From a virus: a DNA stretch of 29,662 nucleotides. The position numbers and the translations under genes are program-made. Position 1 is the stretch's first letter, and each line of letters begins with the position of its first letter. Location of the stretch: IMG/VR virus record IMGVR_UViG_3300044634_000110, positions 1-29,662 of that record. The stretch is one strand, 5' to 3'. Below are positions 20,111 to 29,662 of this stretch, piece by piece. The notes below the pieces were generated by a model. It searched no databases. It saw nothing but the letters and a program-made list of their open reading frames with translations, and was not told where the DNA came from.

Positions 20111-20226
20111 CGCCCTTGTCTATTATATGGTTTTACTGGTTTATCTTTTGGACCAGATGTCTTTTTAGCTTTGCCACATTTACGCTTACCAAATTGAATT
20201 TTTCCGCTATTTGTTGATTTAGCCAT
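20107..20226 (-). CDS. 39-aa basic protein
   Basis: Translation MAKSTNSGKIQFGKRKCGKA followed by a further Lys/Pro-rich half ending NRQGR. Very basic, one Cys, no predicted fold. Its ATG shares a base with the GIY-YIG stop (TAATG) and its TGA overlaps the next ATG (ATGA), so it fits the operon exactly. Composition suggests a nucleic-acid-binding or ribosome-associated small protein; this is a guess. Confidence 0.6.
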   Translation of the reverse strand: MAKSTNSGKIQFGKRKCGKAKKTSGPKDKPVKPYNRQGR

Positions 20227-20864
20227 TATAATAATTTAAAATCTTTATGTTTACTTATTATTCTATTTTTTATTGTTGGTCTTGATACGCAAAGATAATT
20301 AGCACAATCTTGAAAAGACTCAAATATTTTATTTTCTGGTATATACAATACTTTTTTAGACATTGGATGCAAATCACCAGTTCTTCCTAATGCTGGTTTT
20401 ATTAATTTGTTTCTTTGACTTAAATATGGTCTTTTAACACCAAGATTAATCTTGCCTTTAGTAGCTATTCTAATAGATTCTTTGTGTTTTTCAGATAGTA
20501 TTTTGCCTTTATGCGTCTTTGATATTTTATTTGCAACTAATGGGTCTTTACTAATAGCTTTAGTTGGATTTCTAACTAAATTCATTCCATCTTTATTGTC
20601 TTTATTATAAGTGCCAAATAAACCAATATAAAACTGCTCCCATAATAACATTTCTTCATATGTAATATCTCCTAAATCAATTATTAATTTATAAAAATTG
20701 TCAAACCCATATTTATTAATAGTTTTTGTTGAAAATCTATTATCGTTATTATTTCTATATTGATAAAATCTTTTACTTAAATTTTTTGTAGACCCTACAT
20801 AGGTTCTACCATCAGTATGACTTAGTAAATCTAAAAAATAGATATATTTATTTGCCTTCGCCAT
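20226..20864 (-). CDS. GIY-YIG endonuclease with NUMOD3/NUMOD1 domains
   Basis: 212 aa. The N-terminal GIY-YIG domain has YIYFLDL and TYVGSTKNLSKRF (about 7-32) and LLWEQFYIGLFG with a candidate catalytic Glu (about 73-84). The middle has a NUMOD3-like helix (LSEKHKESIRIATKGK, about 118-133), and the end a NUMOD1-like DNA-binding segment (ENKIFESFQDCANYLCVSRPT). This is a homing-type enzyme that cuts DNA lacking it and spreads its own gene. It overlaps NinG-like gene end by 17 bases and is wedged between NinG and the 39-aa gene. More A/T-rich than neighbours, consistent with later arrival. Confidence 0.9.
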   Translation of the reverse strand: MAKANKYIYFLDLLSHTDGRTYVGSTKNLSKRFYQYRNNNDNRFSTKTINKYGFDNFYKLIIDLGDITYEEMLLWEQFYIGLFGTYNKDNKDGMNLVRNPTKAISKDPLVANKISKTHKGKILSEKHKESIRIATKGKINLGVKRPYLSQRNKLIKPALGRTGDLHPMSKKVLYIPENKIFESFQDCANYLCVSRPTIKNRIISKHKDFKLL

Positions 20865-21216
20865 ATTTTTCTATTAATTCGTTTAATTCAGTTCTTGACC
20901 ATTTGTAAACCTTAACCTTAGTTGCTATTGTCTCCAATCCTTTTACTGCTTGTTCACCTAACTTGTTTACTAAGCCTATTCTGTACATAGCTTGGTTGCC
21001 ATGTTTATACATATTGCACCCAGCACATTGTAGGTTAATATTCCATTCATTAAACCTTAAAGCGGAATACCCTTTAACTGGAAAATAATGCCCAGCTTGA
21101 TTTGCGTTAAAGCTGCCACAAGAAATACAAGGTAATCCTTCGTCTCTTTTGCGAACGTATGCGTTAATCACCTTTTGTGTTTTTTTTAATAGCTTGGGTA
21201 ATGGAGTTAATGCCAT
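20848..21216 (-). CDS. NinG-like (Rap) recombination endonuclease
   Basis: 122 aa. LPCISCGS (Cys30, Cys33), QAGHYFPVKGYSALRFNEWNINLQCAGCN (His43, Cys64, Cys67) and MYKHGN match the zinc-binding nuclease fold of lambda NinG/Rap, a branched-DNA endonuclease acting on recombination intermediates. It follows the replication genes as in lambda. A TTG-N20-TAACTTTG promoter-like pair lies directly upstream, with the -7 box 4 bases before the ATG. Confidence 0.88.
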   Translation of the reverse strand: MALTPLPKLLKKTQKVINAYVRKRDEGLPCISCGSFNANQAGHYFPVKGYSALRFNEWNINLQCAGCNMYKHGNQAMYRIGLVNKLGEQAVKGLETIATKVKVYKWSRTELNELIEKYGEGK

Positions 21217-21599: not shown

Positions 21600-22223
21600 T
21601 TATTTAGATAAGTTTTTTAAATACTCATTCATTGCATTACGATTAGCCTCTTTGTCTGTATCATTTGACATTCGGTTAGTATCGCCCATAGATTTAAATT
21701 GTGCGTGTGCCTCCTCTTTAGCATTAACATACGATTGATGCCTTTGTTCACGATATACTTCTAACATCTCAAAAAATGTTGGCATATCCATTCTATCATA
21801 AACTTTGCCGTATTTAAACTTAGGCAATCCATCTAAGAATAGCATAATATCTTGTAAAGCTAATTGATCTTGCTCGGCTTCGTTTATTAACTCAAATGAT
21901 AAATTTGCTATTTGCTCTGGGTTCATACCAACTCTTAAATTGAAATTATTTAAAGAATTTGTAATAGCAATACTTAATACTCCGGCTATTTTATCATTTC
22001 CGTACATTTTTGCTAATGCTGGTAATCTTTCGTTTACTGGTACATTCTCAATTACTGCTAAATGATTTGGTTCGCCTTTTTGAATATAGCGACACATTTC
22101 ATTAAAAACTTCTCCTTTACTGCCTTTCGCTACTTTGTTTAGCAACTGCTTGGAGAGACTCCCATGCGGTAACTTTTGGACTAACCCTTGATTGACTTGT
22201 TGTATTTCTTGTGATGATTTCAT
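21600..22223 (-). CDS. Hypothetical protein paired with replication initiator
   Basis: 207 aa, mainly helical. Segments EVFNEMCRYIQKG, LALQDIMLFLDGLPKFKYGKVYDRMDMPTFFEMLEVYREQRHQ and a Gln/Asn/Lys-rich tail are visible; I recall similar proteins beside initiators in Bacteroidetes phages but know no confirmed function. By position it could be a helicase loader (the lambda P slot), though no Walker motif is present. It overlaps the initiator gene by 107 bases when begun at 22223. A later in-frame Met (about residue 43, 44 region, MCRY) would nearly remove the overlap. Confidence 0.65.
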   Translation of the reverse strand: MKSSQEIQQVNQGLVQKLPHGSLSKQLLNKVAKGSKGEVFNEMCRYIQKGEPNHLAVIENVPVNERLPALAKMYGNDKIAGVLSIAITNSLNNFNLRVGMNPEQIANLSFELINEAEQDQLALQDIMLFLDGLPKFKYGKVYDRMDMPTFFEMLEVYREQRHQSYVNAKEEAHAQFKSMGDTNRMSNDTDKEANRNAMNEYLKNLSK

Positions 22224-22806
22224 CGTTAAAAGATTTTTGGTTTAAGTAAGTAGTTGGATGCTTTCTAAAACTTTTATCTGGAGTTGATTTTACATAGGCT
22301 TGAACGGATTGTAAAGCTAAATCTTTTTCTTGCTCATTTAGTTTATTCCAAGACTTTTTTGCTTTATCCTTAGAAATCTTGTAATCGTACCAAAGCCACC
22401 ATTCTTCAAATTTTGGATCAAGTATTTCAATTTTAGCTTTAGTTCTATTTATAGTTATAGTTTCATTTTCAGTTTCAGTTTCCATATGCTTAGCATATGC
22501 TTTGCTAGTGCTTTCATTTTTAGGTGATTTAGCGTTATTTCTTCTTGATTCACTAAATTTTTGCCTTCTAACTGTTTCATTATACATTCTTTCGTTATAA
22601 AATGCACCATCTTCATTTTTAAATTTGCTCCAAATGTCAATATCATATGCTCTGCATATGCTTAGCATATCCTTTTCAGTTAATTTGCCTTTTTGATGTT
22701 GCAAACAAAGTAAACGAATATACATTCCAACTTGTTCGTTGGTCATAGTAAAAGTTCCACTTAAAAAGTCGGATGTGTAAAATAGCACCGCTGGGTCTTT
22801 ACTCAT
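22117..22806 (-). CDS. Replication initiator-like protein (DUF1376 type)
   Basis: 229 aa. DPAVLFYTSDFLSGTFTMTNEQVGMYIRLLCLQHQKGKLTEKDM (about 4-47) is the winged-helix signature of DUF1376/YdaU-type proteins that fill the lambda O slot. A variable Asn/Lys/Thr linker follows, then a C-terminal domain (FEEWWLWYDYKISKDKAKKSWNKL... HPTTYLNQKSF) common in phage initiators. It probably binds the phage origin and recruits host helicase, since no helicase is encoded. A GC-rich hairpin precedes the ATG directly. Confidence 0.75.
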   Translation of the reverse strand: MSKDPAVLFYTSDFLSGTFTMTNEQVGMYIRLLCLQHQKGKLTEKDMLSICRAYDIDIWSKFKNEDGAFYNERMYNETVRRQKFSESRRNNAKSPKNESTSKAYAKHMETETENETITINRTKAKIEILDPKFEEWWLWYDYKISKDKAKKSWNKLNEQEKDLALQSVQAYVKSTPDKSFRKHPTTYLNQKSFNDEIITRNTTSQSRVSPKVTAWESLQAVAKQSSERQ

Positions 22807-22906: not shown

Positions 22907-23671
22907 CTACTTATTAACCATTAATTCAAATTCTTCTATCGCTTTAAAAATTTGATGTGCAACTTGTGGAACTATTGCGTTTCCGTATGCTTTAATTGAT
23001 TGATTTCTCCATTTAGAAAAGGTAATTCCGTCCATTTCTCTGGAAATCCCATCATCTCCTCCACAAATTGGGGATTTAGTTGGGAACCTGCTGAAATTCC
23101 TTTCCTCATTAAATAACCTACTACATGTTTCCTGTTTAATTGACTTGGAGGAAATGTGCTGTTTGTTTGATCTTGCAGAGTTGGAGTAGGCAAGAAACCA
23201 AATTCTATATCGTTGGTGCGGTGCGTTGACACCAGCAGCTGGAATAAGAAACGATTGGACTTCATATCCTTCCCTTTCCAAGTCATCGTACACCTCGTTG
23301 AATACCAACCCTCCATTCCAATTAACAAGTCCACGAACATTCTCGCCAATAATCCATCTGGGTTTGACCTCTTTAATGCATCTAAGCATATGTGGAAAGA
23401 GATGTCTTTCATCGGCTTTCCCAAGTCGTTTTCCTGCTGTTGAGTAAGGTTGGCAGGGGAAACCTCCTGTAAGGATGTCAACTGATCCGTTGTGAATAGA
23501 GAAGTCTGTTTTAGTAATGTCATTGTAAGAAATTGAATTAGGAAAATGATGTTTTAAAACCCTTTGTCCAAAAGGATTCCATTCGCAATGGAAAAGGTTA
23601 TCCCAACCCATCCATTCAGCGGCAAGGTCAAATCCTCCTATACCGCTAAAAAGGGATGCATGTACTAACAT
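22907..23671 (-). CDS. DNA (cytosine-5) methyltransferase
   Basis: 254 aa. Motif I SLFSGIGGFDLAAEW (6-20), motif IV GGFPCQPYS with catalytic Cys73, motif VI GENVRGL (Glu110-Val112), motif VIII QRYRIWFLAYS (153-163), and motifs IX-X RNQSIKAYGNAIVPQVAHQI (222-241). All catalytic blocks are present; the target-recognition region (about 164-220) is short. It methylates cytosine at C5 in a site that cannot be read from sequence, probably to evade host restriction. No cognate nuclease is nearby. A second frame is open through residues 50-234. It overlaps the HTH gene upstream by 7 bases. Confidence 0.95.
   Translation of the reverse strand: MLVHASLFSGIGGFDLAAEWMGWDNLFHCEWNPFGQRVLKHHFPNSISYNDITKTDFSIHNGSVDILTGGFPCQPYSTAGKRLGKADERHLFPHMLRCIKEVKPRWIIGENVRGLVNWNGGLVFNEVYDDLEREGYEVQSFLIPAAGVNAPHQRYRIWFLAYSNSARSNKQHISSKSIKQETCSRLFNEERNFSRFPTKSPICGGDDGISREMDGITFSKWRNQSIKAYGNAIVPQVAHQIFKAIEEFELMVNK
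22972..23523 (-). CDS. Nested overlapping gene: methyltransferase companion protein
   Basis: 183 aa, read in another frame entirely inside the cytosine methyltransferase gene. It contains TSLQEVSPANLTQQQEN (16-32), IGMEGWYSTRCTMTWKGKD (68-86), FLPTPTLQDQTN (110-121) and LNPQFVEEMMGFPEKWTELP (149-168). From memory, the same blocks recur in Bacteroidetes phage and prophage proteins, often with several LLPTPT units in a longer middle. The LNPQFVEEMMGF block is read across a part of the methyltransferase that holds no catalytic motif, arguing that this frame is itself selected. Function unknown. Start is uncertain; no own RBS was recognised. Confidence 0.55.
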   Translation of the reverse strand: MTLLKQTSLFTTDQLTSLQEVSPANLTQQQENDLGKPMKDISFHICLDALKRSNPDGLLARMFVDLLIGMEGWYSTRCTMTWKGKDMKSNRFLFQLLVSTHRTNDIEFGFLPTPTLQDQTNSTFPPSQLNRKHVVGYLMRKGISAGSQLNPQFVEEMMGFPEKWTELPFLNGEINQLKHTETQ

Positions 23672-24343: not shown

Positions 24344-24592
24344 TTAATAGTTAGAAAATTCTTCAAAGTTTTCAACCCAATCCGACATCCTTACATAAGG
24401 TTCGGACTTAAAGTAAGTTGGTGGTACTAATAAAGCTGGAAAATACTTTCTCTTGTATTCTTTTAGTTGCTCTTTAGCTTTAATTACCATTTGTTGCATA
24501 CTTCGTGCTTGATGTGGGCTACAATTATTAAATCTGTATTCCCAATATCTTACATTATCTCGTAAGTTTTCAAGTTGTACTTCTTTGTTCAT
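24344..24592 (-). CDS. Hypothetical protein in replication operon
   Basis: 82 aa. Helical N-terminal half (VQLENLRDNVRYWEYRFNNC ... MQQMVIKAKEQLKEYKRKYF) and a C-terminal segment with aromatic and acidic residues (SDWVENFEEFSNY). No family recognised. Its ATG shares one base with the stop of the annealing-like gene at 24592. Confidence 0.6.
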   Translation of the reverse strand: MNKEVQLENLRDNVRYWEYRFNNCSPHQARSMQQMVIKAKEQLKEYKRKYFPALLVPPTYFKSEPYVRMSDWVENFEEFSNY

Positions 24593-25215
24593 TATAGGTT
24601 CTTTTTAGCGTTAGTAAATAATTCGTTTAACTGGTTCTCTTGGATCATTGTGATATTTAGTTCGTAAAGTTGCTTTAATTCTGTCAAACTTTCACAAAAA
24701 TCAATAGCTACTACTAAATTGTCTTGGGTTTCGTGCTTCTTGATATAAGGTGCTTGTTCCTTAGAGAAATCCATTTCTTCAGCTGGAGTTGCTTCAAATC
24801 CTGCTGCTTTCATTAACCAACCTAATAAAAGTCTATAAGCCTTACCCTCTGCTCTTGTTTGAGCCATTGAACAAATAGCGTACTCATCAAAGGTTCTTTT
24901 AGTGCGTTCTTTGTTAGAGCAAATAGCGTGTCCGATTGAAACCACTTGATTGGTAGTAATGTTTCGGACCTCACAAGTTGCCCAATACTTTACTTCGTTT
25001 TCTTTGCTTAGGTCTTTTACTTCTGTAATAATTGGAATCAATCCAATTGCAGCACCAGCGTAGCCCCAGCCTTCAACGTTTACGAATTGTTTGCCTTGAA
25101 TGTTAGTGCTTAGTTTTTTTTCTTTGATAAGACTTGCCAACTCATTTGATAGGCTCAAAAGACTATCTTTGTTAATAAGTTCATAGGTTGGTCTAATCTG
25201 TTGTAGTTCTTGCAT
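24592..25215 (-). CDS. Putative ssDNA-annealing / recombination protein
   Basis: 207 aa. FVNVEGWGYAGAAIGLIPII (44-63), YWATCEVRNITTNQVVSIGHAICS (77-100) and CSMAQTRAEGKAYRLLLGWLMKAAGFEATPAEEM (115-148) form a compact alpha/beta domain. The AQTRAxGKAxR helix recalls single-strand annealing and DNA-binding proteins of the Rad52/ERF type seen in phages, but the match is by memory and low in certainty. Next to an SSB-like gene, annealing fits. A promoter-like pair lies upstream (25243-25274). Confidence 0.5.
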   Translation of the reverse strand: MQELQQIRPTYELINKDSLLSLSNELASLIKEKKLSTNIQGKQFVNVEGWGYAGAAIGLIPIITEVKDLSKENEVKYWATCEVRNITTNQVVSIGHAICSNKERTKRTFDEYAICSMAQTRAEGKAYRLLLGWLMKAAGFEATPAEEMDFSKEQAPYIKKHETQDNLVVAIDFCESLTELKQLYELNITMIQENQLNELFTNAKKNL

Positions 25216-25242: not shown

Positions 25243-25274
25243 TAAAAGTATAACTAATTTGTTAATAAATCAAA
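25243..25274 (-). promoter_or_regulatory. Promoter-like pair before annealing-type gene
   Basis: Minus strand: TTTG (25271-25274), 20-base spacer, TACTTTTA (25243-25250), then about 27 bases to the ATG at 25215. Same geometry as the candidate at 26581-26612, with the final G of the -7 box replaced by A. The -33 part overlaps the end of the DnaA-like gene. Confidence 0.4.
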
Positions 25275-25608
25275 TAAATCTTTTAATATTTATCAAATCT
25301 TCTTTTAGATCAGTTTCGTACTTTAAAGACATAATATCCTTAATTGTTTCTAAGGCATGGATAACAGTAGTATGGTCTCGCCCAAACATGTCGCCAATGG
25401 TATTTAGGGTAAAGTCTGTTTTCTCCCTTATATAGTACATAGCTATCCATCTGGCTTTAACCAGTTCACGTTTACGGCATTTGCCTCTAATATCCGAGTT
25501 AGACATACCATAGAAGGCAGCCACTTTCTCAACAATGCTATCCGCCATTTTGATTTGGCTTTTTAGCCCCGATTTTTCCTTCATTATAGGTTGGGTCCAG
25601 TAGTTCAT
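25270..25608 (-). CDS. DnaA domain IV-like DNA-binding protein
   Basis: 112 aa from 25608, or 92 aa from the Met at 25548 (MADSIVEK), which reduces overlap with the upstream 58-aa gene to 11 bases. IVEKVAAFYGMSNSDIRGKCRKRELVKARWIAMYYIREKTDFTLNTIGDMFGRDHTTVIHALETI is the helix-turn-helix of bacterial DnaA domain IV; GRDHTTVIHA is the signature that reads the DnaA box. The AAA+ ATPase and helicase-loading parts are missing. It could mark a phage origin, or compete with host DnaA at oriC. Confidence 0.88.
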   Translation of the reverse strand: MNYWTQPIMKEKSGLKSQIKMADSIVEKVAAFYGMSNSDIRGKCRKRELVKARWIAMYYIREKTDFTLNTIGDMFGRDHTTVIHALETIKDIMSLKYETDLKEDLINIKRFI

Positions 25609-25714
25609 TTAATTTTTGTTTTAGTTCTTTAATTTGTTTTCTTAGCATCTCATTCTCTAATTCAAGTATCTGATTCATCTTGATATAATAGCTTTTATTG
25701 TCTATGTAACTCAT
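25538..25714 (-). CDS. 58-aa coiled-coil protein
   Basis: Translation starts MSYIDNKSYYIKMNQ, then LELENEMLRKQIKELKQKLN with heptad leucines, a Pro/Gly-rich basic tail and ends PNQNGG. It fits the gap exactly: ATG 2 bases after the stop of 25716-26015 and stop within the start of the DnaA-like gene. It may dimerise through the coiled coil, possibly with the DnaA-like protein made next. Confidence 0.55.
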   Translation of the reverse strand: MSYIDNKSYYIKMNQILELENEMLRKQIKELKQKLNELLDPTYNEGKIGAKKPNQNGG

Positions 25715-25715
25715 A

Positions 25716-26015
25716 TTAAAAGTGTAATAGGTTTACTGGCAGCATAAAATCTTCCGTGATTTCGTACAAATCCAAGATTAAAAAATGATATGATTTTAAA
25801 ATACGCTTTTGTACTTCGTTCATTCTGGCTATCTTAATTAAGATGTCCTCCTCCTTTTGCATTAAACGGATTGGATCATCCATTGTGCCTTTTCGCCATT
25901 TAGCTAAGTCTTTCTCAAATAGCGTTTGTCTGGCTTGTGCTGACTTTAATAGTTCTAATAAACAAGCTGCTCTTTTGTGGAGTACAAGTTGTTTTCCTTG
26001 ATAAATTAGTTCCAT
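25716..26015 (-). CDS. Hypothetical helical protein
   Basis: 99 aa, almost entirely helical and basic at its start (YQGKQLVLHKRAACLLELLKSAQARQTLFEKDLAKW), with an acidic/hydrophobic C-terminus (LILDLYEITEDFMLPVNLL). No family recognised. It lies 10 bases after the 74-aa gene in the early operon. May act by protein contact, e.g. against host factors. Confidence 0.6.
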   Translation of the reverse strand: MELIYQGKQLVLHKRAACLLELLKSAQARQTLFEKDLAKWRKGTMDDPIRLMQKEEDILIKIARMNEVQKRILKSYHFLILDLYEITEDFMLPVNLLHF

Positions 26016-26025
26016 AGTTTTATGT

Positions 26026-26250
26026 TTAATCGTTAGAAATATAATTCATAAAATAGTACATATTGCCATCTGCAGTTGAGTTTAATTTGCCACTGTTATA
26101 AGCAGCCTCAATTTGCTTTCTTTCATCTAAAAGCATTGAATAAACTTGTAATGTAATAGTCTTAATTGCTAATAGACTTTTCATATCATTTTCTTCAGAT
26201 GCCATGTCTTCTAAGAAACATATTAATTGTTTTAATTGCGTTTTTTCCAT
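26026..26250 (-). CDS. Hypothetical early protein
   Basis: 74 aa, helical (LKQLICFLEDMASEENDMKSLLAIKTITLQVYSMLLDERKQIEAAYNSG) with a Tyr/Asn-rich end (MYYFMNYISND). No recognised family. Position behind the early promoter makes an early host-takeover role possible. Confidence 0.55.
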   Translation of the reverse strand: MEKTQLKQLICFLEDMASEENDMKSLLAIKTITLQVYSMLLDERKQIEAAYNSGKLNSTADGNMYYFMNYISND

Positions 26251-26359: not shown

Positions 26360-26557
26360 TTAAGGTTTTAAGGTGATAATAATTGAGTAACTCATGTTTG
26401 AGAAAGTAATACTTTCTACTGTGAACATAATTCGTTTAACTTCTTTGCCAAAGTTTGTAATAATGCTATCCCCTACTCTTGGTAGATGTGGAGCATTAAA
26501 TACTTGTTGGTAGTCGATGCCGTCTTGGGCATAATAGATGGTTGTTTGCCAATTCAT
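26360..26557 (-). CDS. Hypothetical first gene of early operon
   Basis: 65 aa, beta-rich: NWQTTIYYAQDGIDYQQVFNAPHLPRVGDSI and a strand-turn end (MFTVESITFSNMSYSIIITL). No family recognised. It is first behind the promoter at 26581-26612, with a predicted leader of about 15 bases, so likely among the earliest proteins made. Confidence 0.6.
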   Translation of the reverse strand: MNWQTTIYYAQDGIDYQQVFNAPHLPRVGDSIITNFGKEVKRIMFTVESITFSNMSYSIIITLKP

Positions 26558-26582
26558 AAATAAGGTTTTTGTTTATGAAGTA

Positions 26583-26602
26583 AAGATATATACACATATC
26601 TT
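26583..26602. promoter_or_regulatory. Inverted repeat in early promoter (operator candidate)
   Basis: AAGATAT (26583-26589) and ATATCTT (26596-26602) are perfect 7-bp inverted arms with 6 bases between. The repeat overlaps the -7 box and spacer of the candidate early promoter, where a dimeric repressor would block transcription. The small HTH protein at 23665-23859 is one possible ligand. Confidence 0.45.
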
Positions 26603-26609
26603 ATCCACC
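26601..26609 (+). promoter_or_regulatory. DnaA-box-like site
   Basis: TTATCCACC matches the DnaA box TTATCCACA at 8 of 9 positions. It sits in the only long noncoding region, next to A/T-rich DNA, in a genome encoding a DnaA domain IV-like protein. A single site is weak evidence for an origin. Confidence 0.35.
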
Positions 26610-26728
26610 AAATTTATTAACAATTATTTTTAGGCTTTAGGATAATTTTAACACTTTGCTAAAGTTTTTAGTAAACATAAAGTTTTCTAATAGTAAACTT
26701 ATCAATCTAATGATATATAATTATATAA

Positions 26729-26755
26729 CAAAAAAAGGGATGTAGAAACACCCCT
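26729..26755 (-). terminator. Intrinsic terminator, second of pair
   Basis: Minus-strand RNA: AGGGGTGT and ACATCCCT form an 8-bp stem with one G-U pair around loop TTCT (26744-26747), followed by seven T (26736-26730). It backs up the terminator at 26803-26834 about 50 bases upstream. Confidence 0.75.
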
Positions 26756-26802
26756 CGGATAAACCTTAATTTACTATGCAATATGAATTAGGGCAAATAT
26801 AA

Positions 26803-27350: not shown

Positions 27351-27528
27351 TTCTAATGATTAATAGTTTTTTTAAATAAATGCAGAAATCAAGGCTTTCT
27401 TCGTAAGCGTGTTGTAACCATTGATCTTGTGTTAAATCAGTACGATCCATTGTTACTCCATATGTTTCCAATCCTTTTAGTTCTCTGGCTTTAATGTCGT
27501 TTATTACTTGTTCGGTTACTTGGCTCAT
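27337..27528 (-). CDS. Small MazG-like / nucleotide-pool protein (putative)
   Basis: 63 aa. VINDIKARELKGLETYGVTMDRTDLTQDQWLQHAYEESLDFCIYLKKLL has the R-x-x-KG-x-x-TYG and EE-x-x-D spacing of short all-alpha phage NTP pyrophosphohydrolase-like proteins. The candidate metal-binding residues are Glu and Asp in YEESLDF. It may trim modified or excess nucleotides. Short length and by-eye matching limit certainty. ATG at 27528 shares a base with the exonuclease stop. Confidence 0.5.
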   Translation of the reverse strand: MSQVTEQVINDIKARELKGLETYGVTMDRTDLTQDQWLQHAYEESLDFCIYLKKLLIIRNGNI

Positions 27529-28271
27529 TATTTATCGGTTTTTGTATGAAACTTGCCACAAACCTTACATCTCATTTGCACTTTAACTACCCCAGTTGCG
27601 GTTGTTCTTGTGTTGTTTCTAACTATGTTTTCTCCATCTGCTCCACATTCTGGGCAAGATGCTCTTAGACCTCCGTAAAGCACCCCATAATGAGATTTAG
27701 ATGGTATATGGTTATTTAAGTGTTTAAATACCTTTTCAAGCAATATTACATCCTTTTTGCAGTATTTAAGCATATCATCCATAGCCTTTTTATCCTTATG
27801 TAACAAAATATCTTTCCAAAGGTTAAACTCTGTTTTAATTTTTTGTCCTATGCCTAAAAAATCTGCTATGTAGTTTAATCGGTTAGAGTTAAATCTAAAC
27901 TTAGACCTTGCTATCTTTAAAGTATCTATTGTAATGTAATTAGGAAACATTAGTATCCCATGAAATAAGCATCTGGTTCTAATCCATGCTAAATCAAACT
28001 TGTCTCCATTATGTCCTACTAATTCGGTAGCAGTATTTGCTACTTGTATAAACTTTTCAAGCATCTTTTTATCGTTCTGCTTGGAATCCCAGTAAAGTCC
28101 TTCTACTTCTTTATCATCTTCCCACTTGTAACAAATGCAAATTATGGCTCTTTCTTTGACTATGTTTGAATAGTCTATGTTCTTTTTATATCCAGCTTCC
28201 CAGAATAGACCGATGTTTGGAGAGGTTTCTATGTCAAAGAATAGCCTTCTCCTTGTTGTTCTTTCAGCCAT
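27528..28271 (-). CDS. DnaQ-like 3'-5' exonuclease with zinc ribbon
   Basis: 247 aa. Exo I FFDIETSP (Asp13, Glu15), Exo II LVGHNGDKFDLAWI (Asp93), Exo III YCKKDVILLEKV (Asp174) give the DEDD set of RNase H-fold exonucleases, of the YprB or DNA polymerase proofreading type. The polymerase domain is absent. A C-terminal zinc ribbon, CPECG (206-210) and CKVCG (235-239), is fused and probably binds DNA. It may process DNA ends or degrade host DNA. It follows the lysozyme gene by 17 bases. Confidence 0.88.
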   Translation of the reverse strand: MAERTTRRRLFFDIETSPNIGLFWEAGYKKNIDYSNIVKERAIICICYKWEDDKEVEGLYWDSKQNDKKMLEKFIQVANTATELVGHNGDKFDLAWIRTRCLFHGILMFPNYITIDTLKIARSKFRFNSNRLNYIADFLGIGQKIKTEFNLWKDILLHKDKKAMDDMLKYCKKDVILLEKVFKHLNNHIPSKSHYGVLYGGLRASCPECGADGENIVRNNTRTTATGVVKVQMRCKVCGKFHTKTDK

Positions 28272-28288: not shown

Positions 28289-28891
28289 TTATGCCATACT
28301 TGACCTTATCAAGTCTGCCTCGCTTTCACGTCTAACTACCAACCCGTCTAATCCTTTGCCCTCCCACAATCTCTTGCTCTTTTCAATTTGTTCAGCTATG
28401 CCCTCATAATCTTGCTTTGCTACTAAATCTACAATAGCCTTCATTTCTTTACGAGAATCACCTTCTATCTTTGAGCCTCTGTTATATACCATAGAAACCA
28501 AAGCACCTCTGGTATCTTCGTTTAAGGTATCTAATTGAGGGTATATTCTTTTAGTCATTGCGTAATACTTAGGAATTGACTTCTTAACGAAAACATCATA
28601 TGCTATATTGTACGGAATGATAACATTTAACACTTCGCCTTTCATCATTGACTTAACCACTTCACCCTTAACTCCACAAAATCTTTTCATTGCATTTAAG
28701 AAGTTTAGGTTCAATGCTGACCAATCAGAAAACAAGTCTGCTTCTTTAGCATAGCCACAATCCCAGCCGATACCCAGCGTAAGTCCGCTTTCTCCGCCTG
28801 GCCATATTGGTTTCTGATATTTTTTTTCATAAACATTTCTTCCACCAATCTCGTGTTGTATTATAAGTTCAACTGCTTTGCGGCTAATCAT
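28289..28891 (-). CDS. Phage lysozyme (T4-type / GH24-like endolysin)
   Basis: 200 aa. IIQHEIGG near the N-terminus gives candidate catalytic Glu14, and GLTLGIGWDCGY (36-47) the second active-site region of T4-like muramidases; GALVSMVYNRGS (about 129-140) matches the conserved lysozyme core. No signal peptide, so export depends on a holin (71-295 or 1719-1886). It should cleave peptidoglycan at lysis. The ATG overlaps the end of the GIY-YIG gene by 8 bases. Being followed by an exonuclease rather than a terminator is unusual for lysis genes. Confidence 0.85.
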   Translation of the reverse strand: MISRKAVELIIQHEIGGRNVYEKKYQKPIWPGGESGLTLGIGWDCGYAKEADLFSDWSALNLNFLNAMKRFCGVKGEVVKSMMKGEVLNVIIPYNIAYDVFVKKSIPKYYAMTKRIYPQLDTLNEDTRGALVSMVYNRGSKIEGDSRKEMKAIVDLVAKQDYEGIAEQIEKSKRLWEGKGLDGLVVRRESEADLIRSSMA

Positions 28892-29528
28892 TTCTTAATC
28901 TTTTTTCTGCGTTATATTTTAATAATGTTTGTCTTATTTTTTCTTTTGTCTCTTCACTAACCTTTGTATTTTTTCTACAAGTAGGATTTAGTTTTTTAGT
29001 ATCTCTTATTTTTTGTTTTGTTTCTTCAGACATTTTTTTGCCTTTATTTGGACCAACTCTACCTCTTAAAGTATTAGCAATCTTTTCTCTTGTTTCTTTA
29101 GATGGAGATTTACCAGCGTTTGGACTAATCTTACCTAAATTAGCTAATCTTAATTTAAGTTTTGTTTCTTCACTTCTTGGGCTTCGTTTTCTATTTCTGC
29201 TTTCTTCTCCAATTTTTCTTTTCGCATCTTCACTATGTCTAAAGCCTTTTGATCCACCGCCACCATCAGAAATATTAACTAAACAACCAGTTCCGTTATC
29301 TCTTTTGCCGTACAAAGATATAAACTCTATCTCTTTCTTTTCAGCTTCTTCCCAGCTTATATCATCAAAAAGTATTTCTACTTCATAATCAGTTTTAGCT
29401 ACTATATTTTGCCAAAATTGATTTCTTTTCTGCTTTTCATATGCTCTTTTATAGTTAGGCAGCTTTCCAATACCAATGTAAAATGGTTCGTTTTTATCCA
29501 GCCTAATATGCCTATAAACATATGCCAT
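28884..29528 (-). CDS. GIY-YIG endonuclease with repeated NUMOD3 motifs
   Basis: 214 aa. VYRHIRLDKNEPFYIGIGKLPNYKRAYEK (4-32) is a GIY-YIG variant of the type common in Bacteroidetes phages; WEEAEKKEIEFISLYG supplies the likely catalytic Glu (about residue 67). Then at least four NUMOD3-like units follow: HSEDAKRKIGEES, SEETKLKLRLANLG, SKETREKIANTLRG, SEETKQKIRDTKK and SEETKEKIRQTL. These bind DNA along the target. It is wedged between holin-like and lysozyme genes across the window junction and is a probable homing element. A promoter-like site immediately precedes it. Confidence 0.88.
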   Translation of the reverse strand: MAYVYRHIRLDKNEPFYIGIGKLPNYKRAYEKQKRNQFWQNIVAKTDYEVEILFDDISWEEAEKKEIEFISLYGKRDNGTGCLVNISDGGGGSKGFRHSEDAKRKIGEESRNRKRSPRSEETKLKLRLANLGKISPNAGKSPSKETREKIANTLRGRVGPNKGKKMSEETKQKIRDTKKLNPTCRKNTKVSEETKEKIRQTLLKYNAEKRLRND

Positions 29529-29535
29529 ATTAAAT

Positions 29536-29662
29536 CAAATGTTTAGCAAAGATACAAATACAAACAATCCAAACAACAATGCCAACGGCAAAGGCTCTTT
29601 TTTCGTTATTCGGCATCTTCTTTCTTTTTAAATATTTTCTCAACTGATGTTAAACCTAATGT
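29536..29662. repeat. Terminal direct repeat (right copy)
   Basis: Exact copy of bases 1-127. Joining the ends gives a 29,535-bp circle in which the holin-like gene (71-295) lies just upstream of the GIY-YIG gene (28884-29528) on the minus strand. Features in this copy are the same as those listed for the left copy. Confidence 0.95.

Follow-up and report, generated by a model that had tools for sequence, protein, structure and literature searches.

What can a protein that carries the DNA-binding domain of DnaA, and no ATPase, do for the phage that encodes it? The question is raised by the gene dnaA-IV (25270-25608, minus strand; 112 aa) in the window, i.e. the whole 29,662-nucleotide stretch of viral DNA analyzed here. 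According to the first-pass annotation, its product is an isolated DnaA domain IV from a phage lacking its own replication enzymes, which could either steer host replication proteins to a phage origin or occupy the host oriC and stop initiation there. We find that the domain assignment and the connection with DnaA boxes stand, while neither of the proposed roles is the best fit to the data. Instead, we favor, at a little under even chances, the view that the protein reads DnaA boxes as a transcription regulator, acting on its own operon and on the neighboring gene.

A free-standing DnaA domain IV and its genomic setting

The Bac_DnaA_C domain (PF08299) covers residues 23-89 of the protein (25342-25542; Pfam, E 1.6e-24), and the match, with 86.2 bits against a gathering cut-off of 31.5, extends over positions 2-69 of the 69 in the profile, i.e. 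over the full-length domain. The model of full-length DnaA (TIGR00362) aligns only at positions 343-436 of 437, that is with its last 94 positions, and its score of 85.6 bits lies far below the cut-off of 343.9 for a DnaA replication initiator. The end-to-end match to the former and the C-terminal-only match to the latter indicate that domain IV is present and domains I-III are absent, so the gene indeed encodes an isolated domain IV, in which the GRDHTTVIHA motif (residues 76-85) is kept and the AAA+ part is gone, as had been proposed. The best model of a short protein, PRK06030 (NF004686), matches at 1e-10, under its cut-off.

The comparison of a predicted structure with DnaA domain IV, suggested earlier as a check, agrees with this assignment: the best Foldseek matches of the AF2 model (pLDDT 87) are 3pvp and 1j1v (TM to target 0.85), and by sequence and fold alike the nearest solved structures are DNA-bound domains IV of DnaA from E. 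coli (1J1V) and M. tuberculosis (3PVP). With these the phage protein has in common the fold and the equivalents of five residues, R45, R53, D78, H79 and T80, aligned with R399, R407, D433, H434 and T435 of E. coli, which we take, following the structural work on 1J1V, to be DNA contacts. None of the five varies among 13 aligned phage proteins, the identity being as low as 31% for one of them, and the gene is under strong purifying selection (dN/dS of 0.07 for domain IV). The protein is a predicted reader of DnaA boxes with its DNA-contact residues kept. It differs from cellular DnaA by the absence of domains I-III, by the replacement of Q408 with W and of P423 with N or K, and, compared to E. 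coli DnaA, by being one residue shorter ahead of GRDH.

Phages often encode isolated DnaA-IV proteins, and by itself the present one is therefore no novelty. The gene matches a family of DnaA-like replication initiation proteins (PHROG 27829), and a structure search of viral models returned dozens of matches. Phages with DnaA-C proteins include the HTVC010P-type pelagiphages, Cellulophaga phage phi19:3, Olleya phage Harreka_1 and Flavobacterium phage tooticki; similar genes have been annotated in pelagiphages (PMC6811365) and in Polaribacter phages P12002L/S (PMC4615864). These are annotations of DnaA or Bac_DnaA_C in tailed-phage genomes, several of them from phages of Flavobacteriia, and in pelagiphages the gene also lies close to a single-strand annealing gene. 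We found no functional tests of the named phage proteins in the literature. Among bacteria, a contig scan for relatives yielded only three loci, from Comamonadaceae and Vandammella, with 40% identity.

With ends that are identical over 127 bp (terminal direct repeat, 1-127 and 29536-29662), the record probably represents a complete genome, of about 29,535 bp. The similarity of the portal protein to those of Cellulophaga and Flavobacterium phages, together with the style of the promoters, suggests that the host is probably a flavobacterium. The genome also carries two homing-endonuclease genes (phrog_314; 20226-20864 and 28884-29528) and a DNA methyltransferase gene (22907-23671).

The presumed lack of a polymerase, a primase and a helicase was confirmed in the sense that a scan of 30 ORFs against PHROGs matched none; weak or partial matches to polymerase and primase families came from the exonuclease and the methyltransferase. 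Nevertheless, the phage is not devoid of replication genes: it possesses a gene for a lambda-O-like replication initiation or primosomal protein (22117-22806, minus strand; phrog_270 4e-15, phrog_9327 5e-14, DUF1376), as well as a PolB-type 3'-5' exonuclease (27528-28271) and NinG (20848-21216). The O-like gene contains three iteron-like palindromic repeats CATATGCTNNGCATATG (22483-22671), which are kept in relatives with a similar O-like protein and are absent or different where this protein diverges. The origin of lambda is located inside gene O, and the CATATGCTNNGCATATG repeats, by their resemblance to this arrangement, constitute a candidate origin with lambda-type iterons, a rival to any origin at the DnaA boxes. 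An O-like gene with internal iterons makes it less compelling to assign DnaA-IV to replication for want of any other candidate.

DnaA boxes on both sides of the gene

The near-consensus DnaA box reported earlier at 26601-26609, in the main noncoding region, is real (TTATCCACC), and turns out to be the middle member of an array, which strengthens the case for DnaA boxes in this region. Three DnaA-box-like 9-mers (26588-26622, plus strand), namely ATATACACA at 26588, TTATCCACC at 26601 and TTATTAACA at 26614, follow each other with an exact 13-bp spacing in the AT-rich largest noncoding gap (320 bp), and 0/1000 shuffles gave such a triple. The array is retained in aligned relatives. Its core TAT..AC is constant in 14 of them, with free variation at the degenerate position 5 of the DnaA box; this constancy is in part imposed by the search pattern, hence the alignment of relatives provides the fairer view. 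Inspection by eye of the DNA beside the array revealed no convincing repeat of the DnaA-trio or unwinding type.

Promoters of Bacteroidota have the form TTG-N19/20-TAnnTTTG/A, and both box sites lie in predicted promoters of this type, as judged from consensus matches. At the array, the promoter-like element TTTG-N20-TATCTTTA (26581-26612, minus strand) overlaps boxes 2 and 3 and faces the dnaA-IV operon; the element at this operon end reads TTG-N20-TATCTTTA/G. Its TTG includes the final base of box 2, a possible reason for this box ending in C throughout the close relatives. In the diverged loci L078-L081 the boxes of the array are lost and the promoter elements are kept, with slightly longer spacing; having outlasted the boxes, these elements resemble an independent promoter. 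Between this promoter and dnaA-IV there are four small genes on the minus strand (26360-26557, 26026-26250, 25716-26015 and 25538-25714), presumably co-transcribed with it. A further candidate box, TTATTTACA, upstream of dnaA-IV in L078, L079 and L081, was rejected, as it falls in a small ORF.

A second site, absent from the first-pass annotation, lies in the gap that separates dnaA-IV from the following gene (25260-25268, minus strand; TTATTAACA in the window), starting one base past the dnaA-IV stop codon. It reads exactly TTATTCACA or TTATCCACA in 19/23 loci, the window's own copy carrying a C-to-A change; the relatives are partly redundant (the same contigs occur twice), so the independent evidence amounts to about a dozen sequences. 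Among the 12 distinct sequences of the site, no change occurs in columns 1-4 and 7-9 of the box, and the flanks vary. In each of six near-complete relatives (28.8-34.1 kb), the sole exact TTATNCACA of the genome is the site just after dnaA-IV. The diverged clade of L076 and L078-L081 has kept the box as well, as have relatives whose downstream protein is no more than 72-88% identical. Farther out, from L082 onward, dnaA-IV is present and a noncoding box is missing from the corresponding place. Paired boxes that seemed to occupy the gap between dnaA-IV and the following gene in 50-odd distant loci proved, upon alignment, to be part of a small ORF coding for IIHNINYSQ, and being coding they were left out of the counts.

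The second box is surrounded by the promoter-like element TTTG...N20...TACTTTTA (25243-25274, minus strand). A TTG-N19/20-TA[AC]TTTTA arrangement, with the box directly behind TTG, occurs in 22/23 loci; the promoter call calls for some caution, as the TTTG overlaps the dnaA-IV stop codon. The gene behind this element (24592-25215, minus strand) belongs to a family of unknown function (phrog_19042), and its product gave no significant Pfam or PDB match by sequence. RAD52 is among the top Foldseek matches of its structural model (E about 0.01), and because the model is of low confidence we regard the protein as a candidate Rad52-like single-strand annealing protein only. The linkage of the two genes is strict: dnaA-IV lies directly, or with one small ORF in between, upstream of the homologue of this gene in 77/77 loci with enough flanking sequence.

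Elsewhere in the window, DnaA boxes are scarce. There is no exact TTATNCACA in it, and near-boxes number 25 against a mean of 45 in shuffled sequences, which ignore codon usage, a rarity matched by only 2% of permuted motifs. Depletion of near-boxes was also seen in relatives and pelagiphages. In HTVC010P, HTVC024P, Greip and three other records we detected neither a 13-bp triple array nor a comparable noncoding box beside the gene, and no box arrays occur near dnaA-C genes in the pelagiphages, fecal phages and Rhizobium phage examined.

Possible roles of the domain IV protein

The combination of a domain without ATPase, conserved boxes in promoter-like cores and scarcity of boxes elsewhere is best accommodated by a transcription regulator. 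In such a scheme, the dnaA-IV protein would bind the three boxes that lie in tandem over its own operon's promoter, resulting in autoregulation, as well as the lone box that separates the -33-like from the -7-like element in the promoter of the annealing candidate. The boxes would be occupied by the phage protein, either in place of host DnaA or alongside it. Since these are located within promoter cores, repression by steric hindrance is the most likely outcome; the protein might instead activate transcription, or time it through exchange with host DnaA. More specifically, we propose, as a tentative idea held well short of even confidence, that in this phage lineage domain IV has become a dedicated repressor, with the genome's one exact box, in near-complete members, as the operator of the annealing candidate and the triple box controlling the protein's own operon.

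The closest precedent for the regulator, by analogy, may be GafY/HdaB (CCNA_01111) of Caulobacter crescentus, a homologue of DnaA domain IV that binds promoters, its own among them (PMC9632790), and is an activator of a phage-like GTA, or gene transfer agent (PMC9632790; PMC11150451). An effect of GafY on replication was reported first, and a role in GTA transcription was argued later (PMC9632790). As described, both GafY/HdaB and dnaA-IV are free-standing homologues of domain IV without AAA+, and GafY is tied to a phage-like element. On the other hand, GafY works with GafZ and IHF through a mapped element at -123 to -113 that has not been reported as a DnaA box (PMC11150451), whereas the present phage has its boxes within promoter-like cores and yielded no GafZ partner. 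DnaA itself is both an activator and a repressor of transcription (PMC8203912).

If the dedicated-repressor proposal is true, recombination and replication genes of the phage would answer to the DNA code of host initiation. Many isolated DnaA-IV proteins of phages are annotated as replication initiators by default, and the conserved boxes beside dnaA-IV offer a concrete and cheap way to ask whether such proteins are regulators and whether they compete with host DnaA for this code.

The suggestion that the protein steers host initiators to a phage origin, or blocks oriC, fits less well with boxes that lie in promoter-like cores and are otherwise rare, and with the iterons of the O-like gene. 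As an origin helper, a role we deem unlikely, the protein would mark a phage origin placed either in the 26588-26622 array or where dnaA-IV meets the annealing candidate, and recruit host DnaA, a DnaB loader or the O-like protein. A dnaA gene beside DnaA boxes is reminiscent of oriC in bacteria, the array occupies the largest and AT-rich gap, DnaA-C proteins of phages carry the annotation of replication initiation protein, and Rhizobium phage RHph_N28_2 has a DUF1376 gene ahead of its DnaA-like gene. Against this, noncoding DNA near dnaA-IV offers only four weak boxes, one of them alone; the array is lost in L078-L081 where dnaA-IV is retained; the O-like gene has palindromic iterons of its own, as in lambda; and the protein lacks the AAA+ domain for melting DNA. 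GC skew exhibits no clear switch around the array and dnaA-IV, a result confounded by the coding on one strand.

Alternatively, the intended reader of the boxes could be host DnaA, so that early phage promoters would be tied to its activity and the phage domain IV would compete with it; we consider this rather improbable. In lambda, host DnaA stimulates transcription near the origin (PMC3985674; PMC8203912), which provides a precedent, and the agreement of the phage contact residues with those of DnaA means that sites could be common to both proteins. Triples of DnaA boxes with exact 13-bp spacing, mostly TGTGGATAA, are also present in four virus records, L037 (4612-4646), L038 (11597-11631), L039 (799-833) and L040 (7631-7665), in which we found no DnaA-C gene, and these near-perfect boxes keep the host-DnaA reading alive. 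It is nevertheless difficult to reconcile with the second box traveling with the phage dnaA-IV across diverged relatives, and with the recurrence at both sites of variants such as TTATTAACA, which may suit the phage protein.

Even on its own, DnaA domain IV is able to bind boxes while lacking the AAA+ functions that opening requires, and the phage genome itself is box-poor, but an anti-host factor that occupies oriC or other host DnaA boxes and stops host initiation seems very improbable to us, as it leaves the conserved promoter boxes beside the gene unexplained and as the replication effect reported for GafY was later argued to reflect GTA transcription.

One more element deserves mention. 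A terminator-like hairpin (about 26735-26757, minus strand), for which no Rfam match was obtained, stands behind a conserved TAnnTTTG element and is a candidate short leader RNA. Its loop, TTTCTA, is invariant in relatives and present also in L078-L081, and among the relatives it is closed by five different, compensating 8-bp stems.
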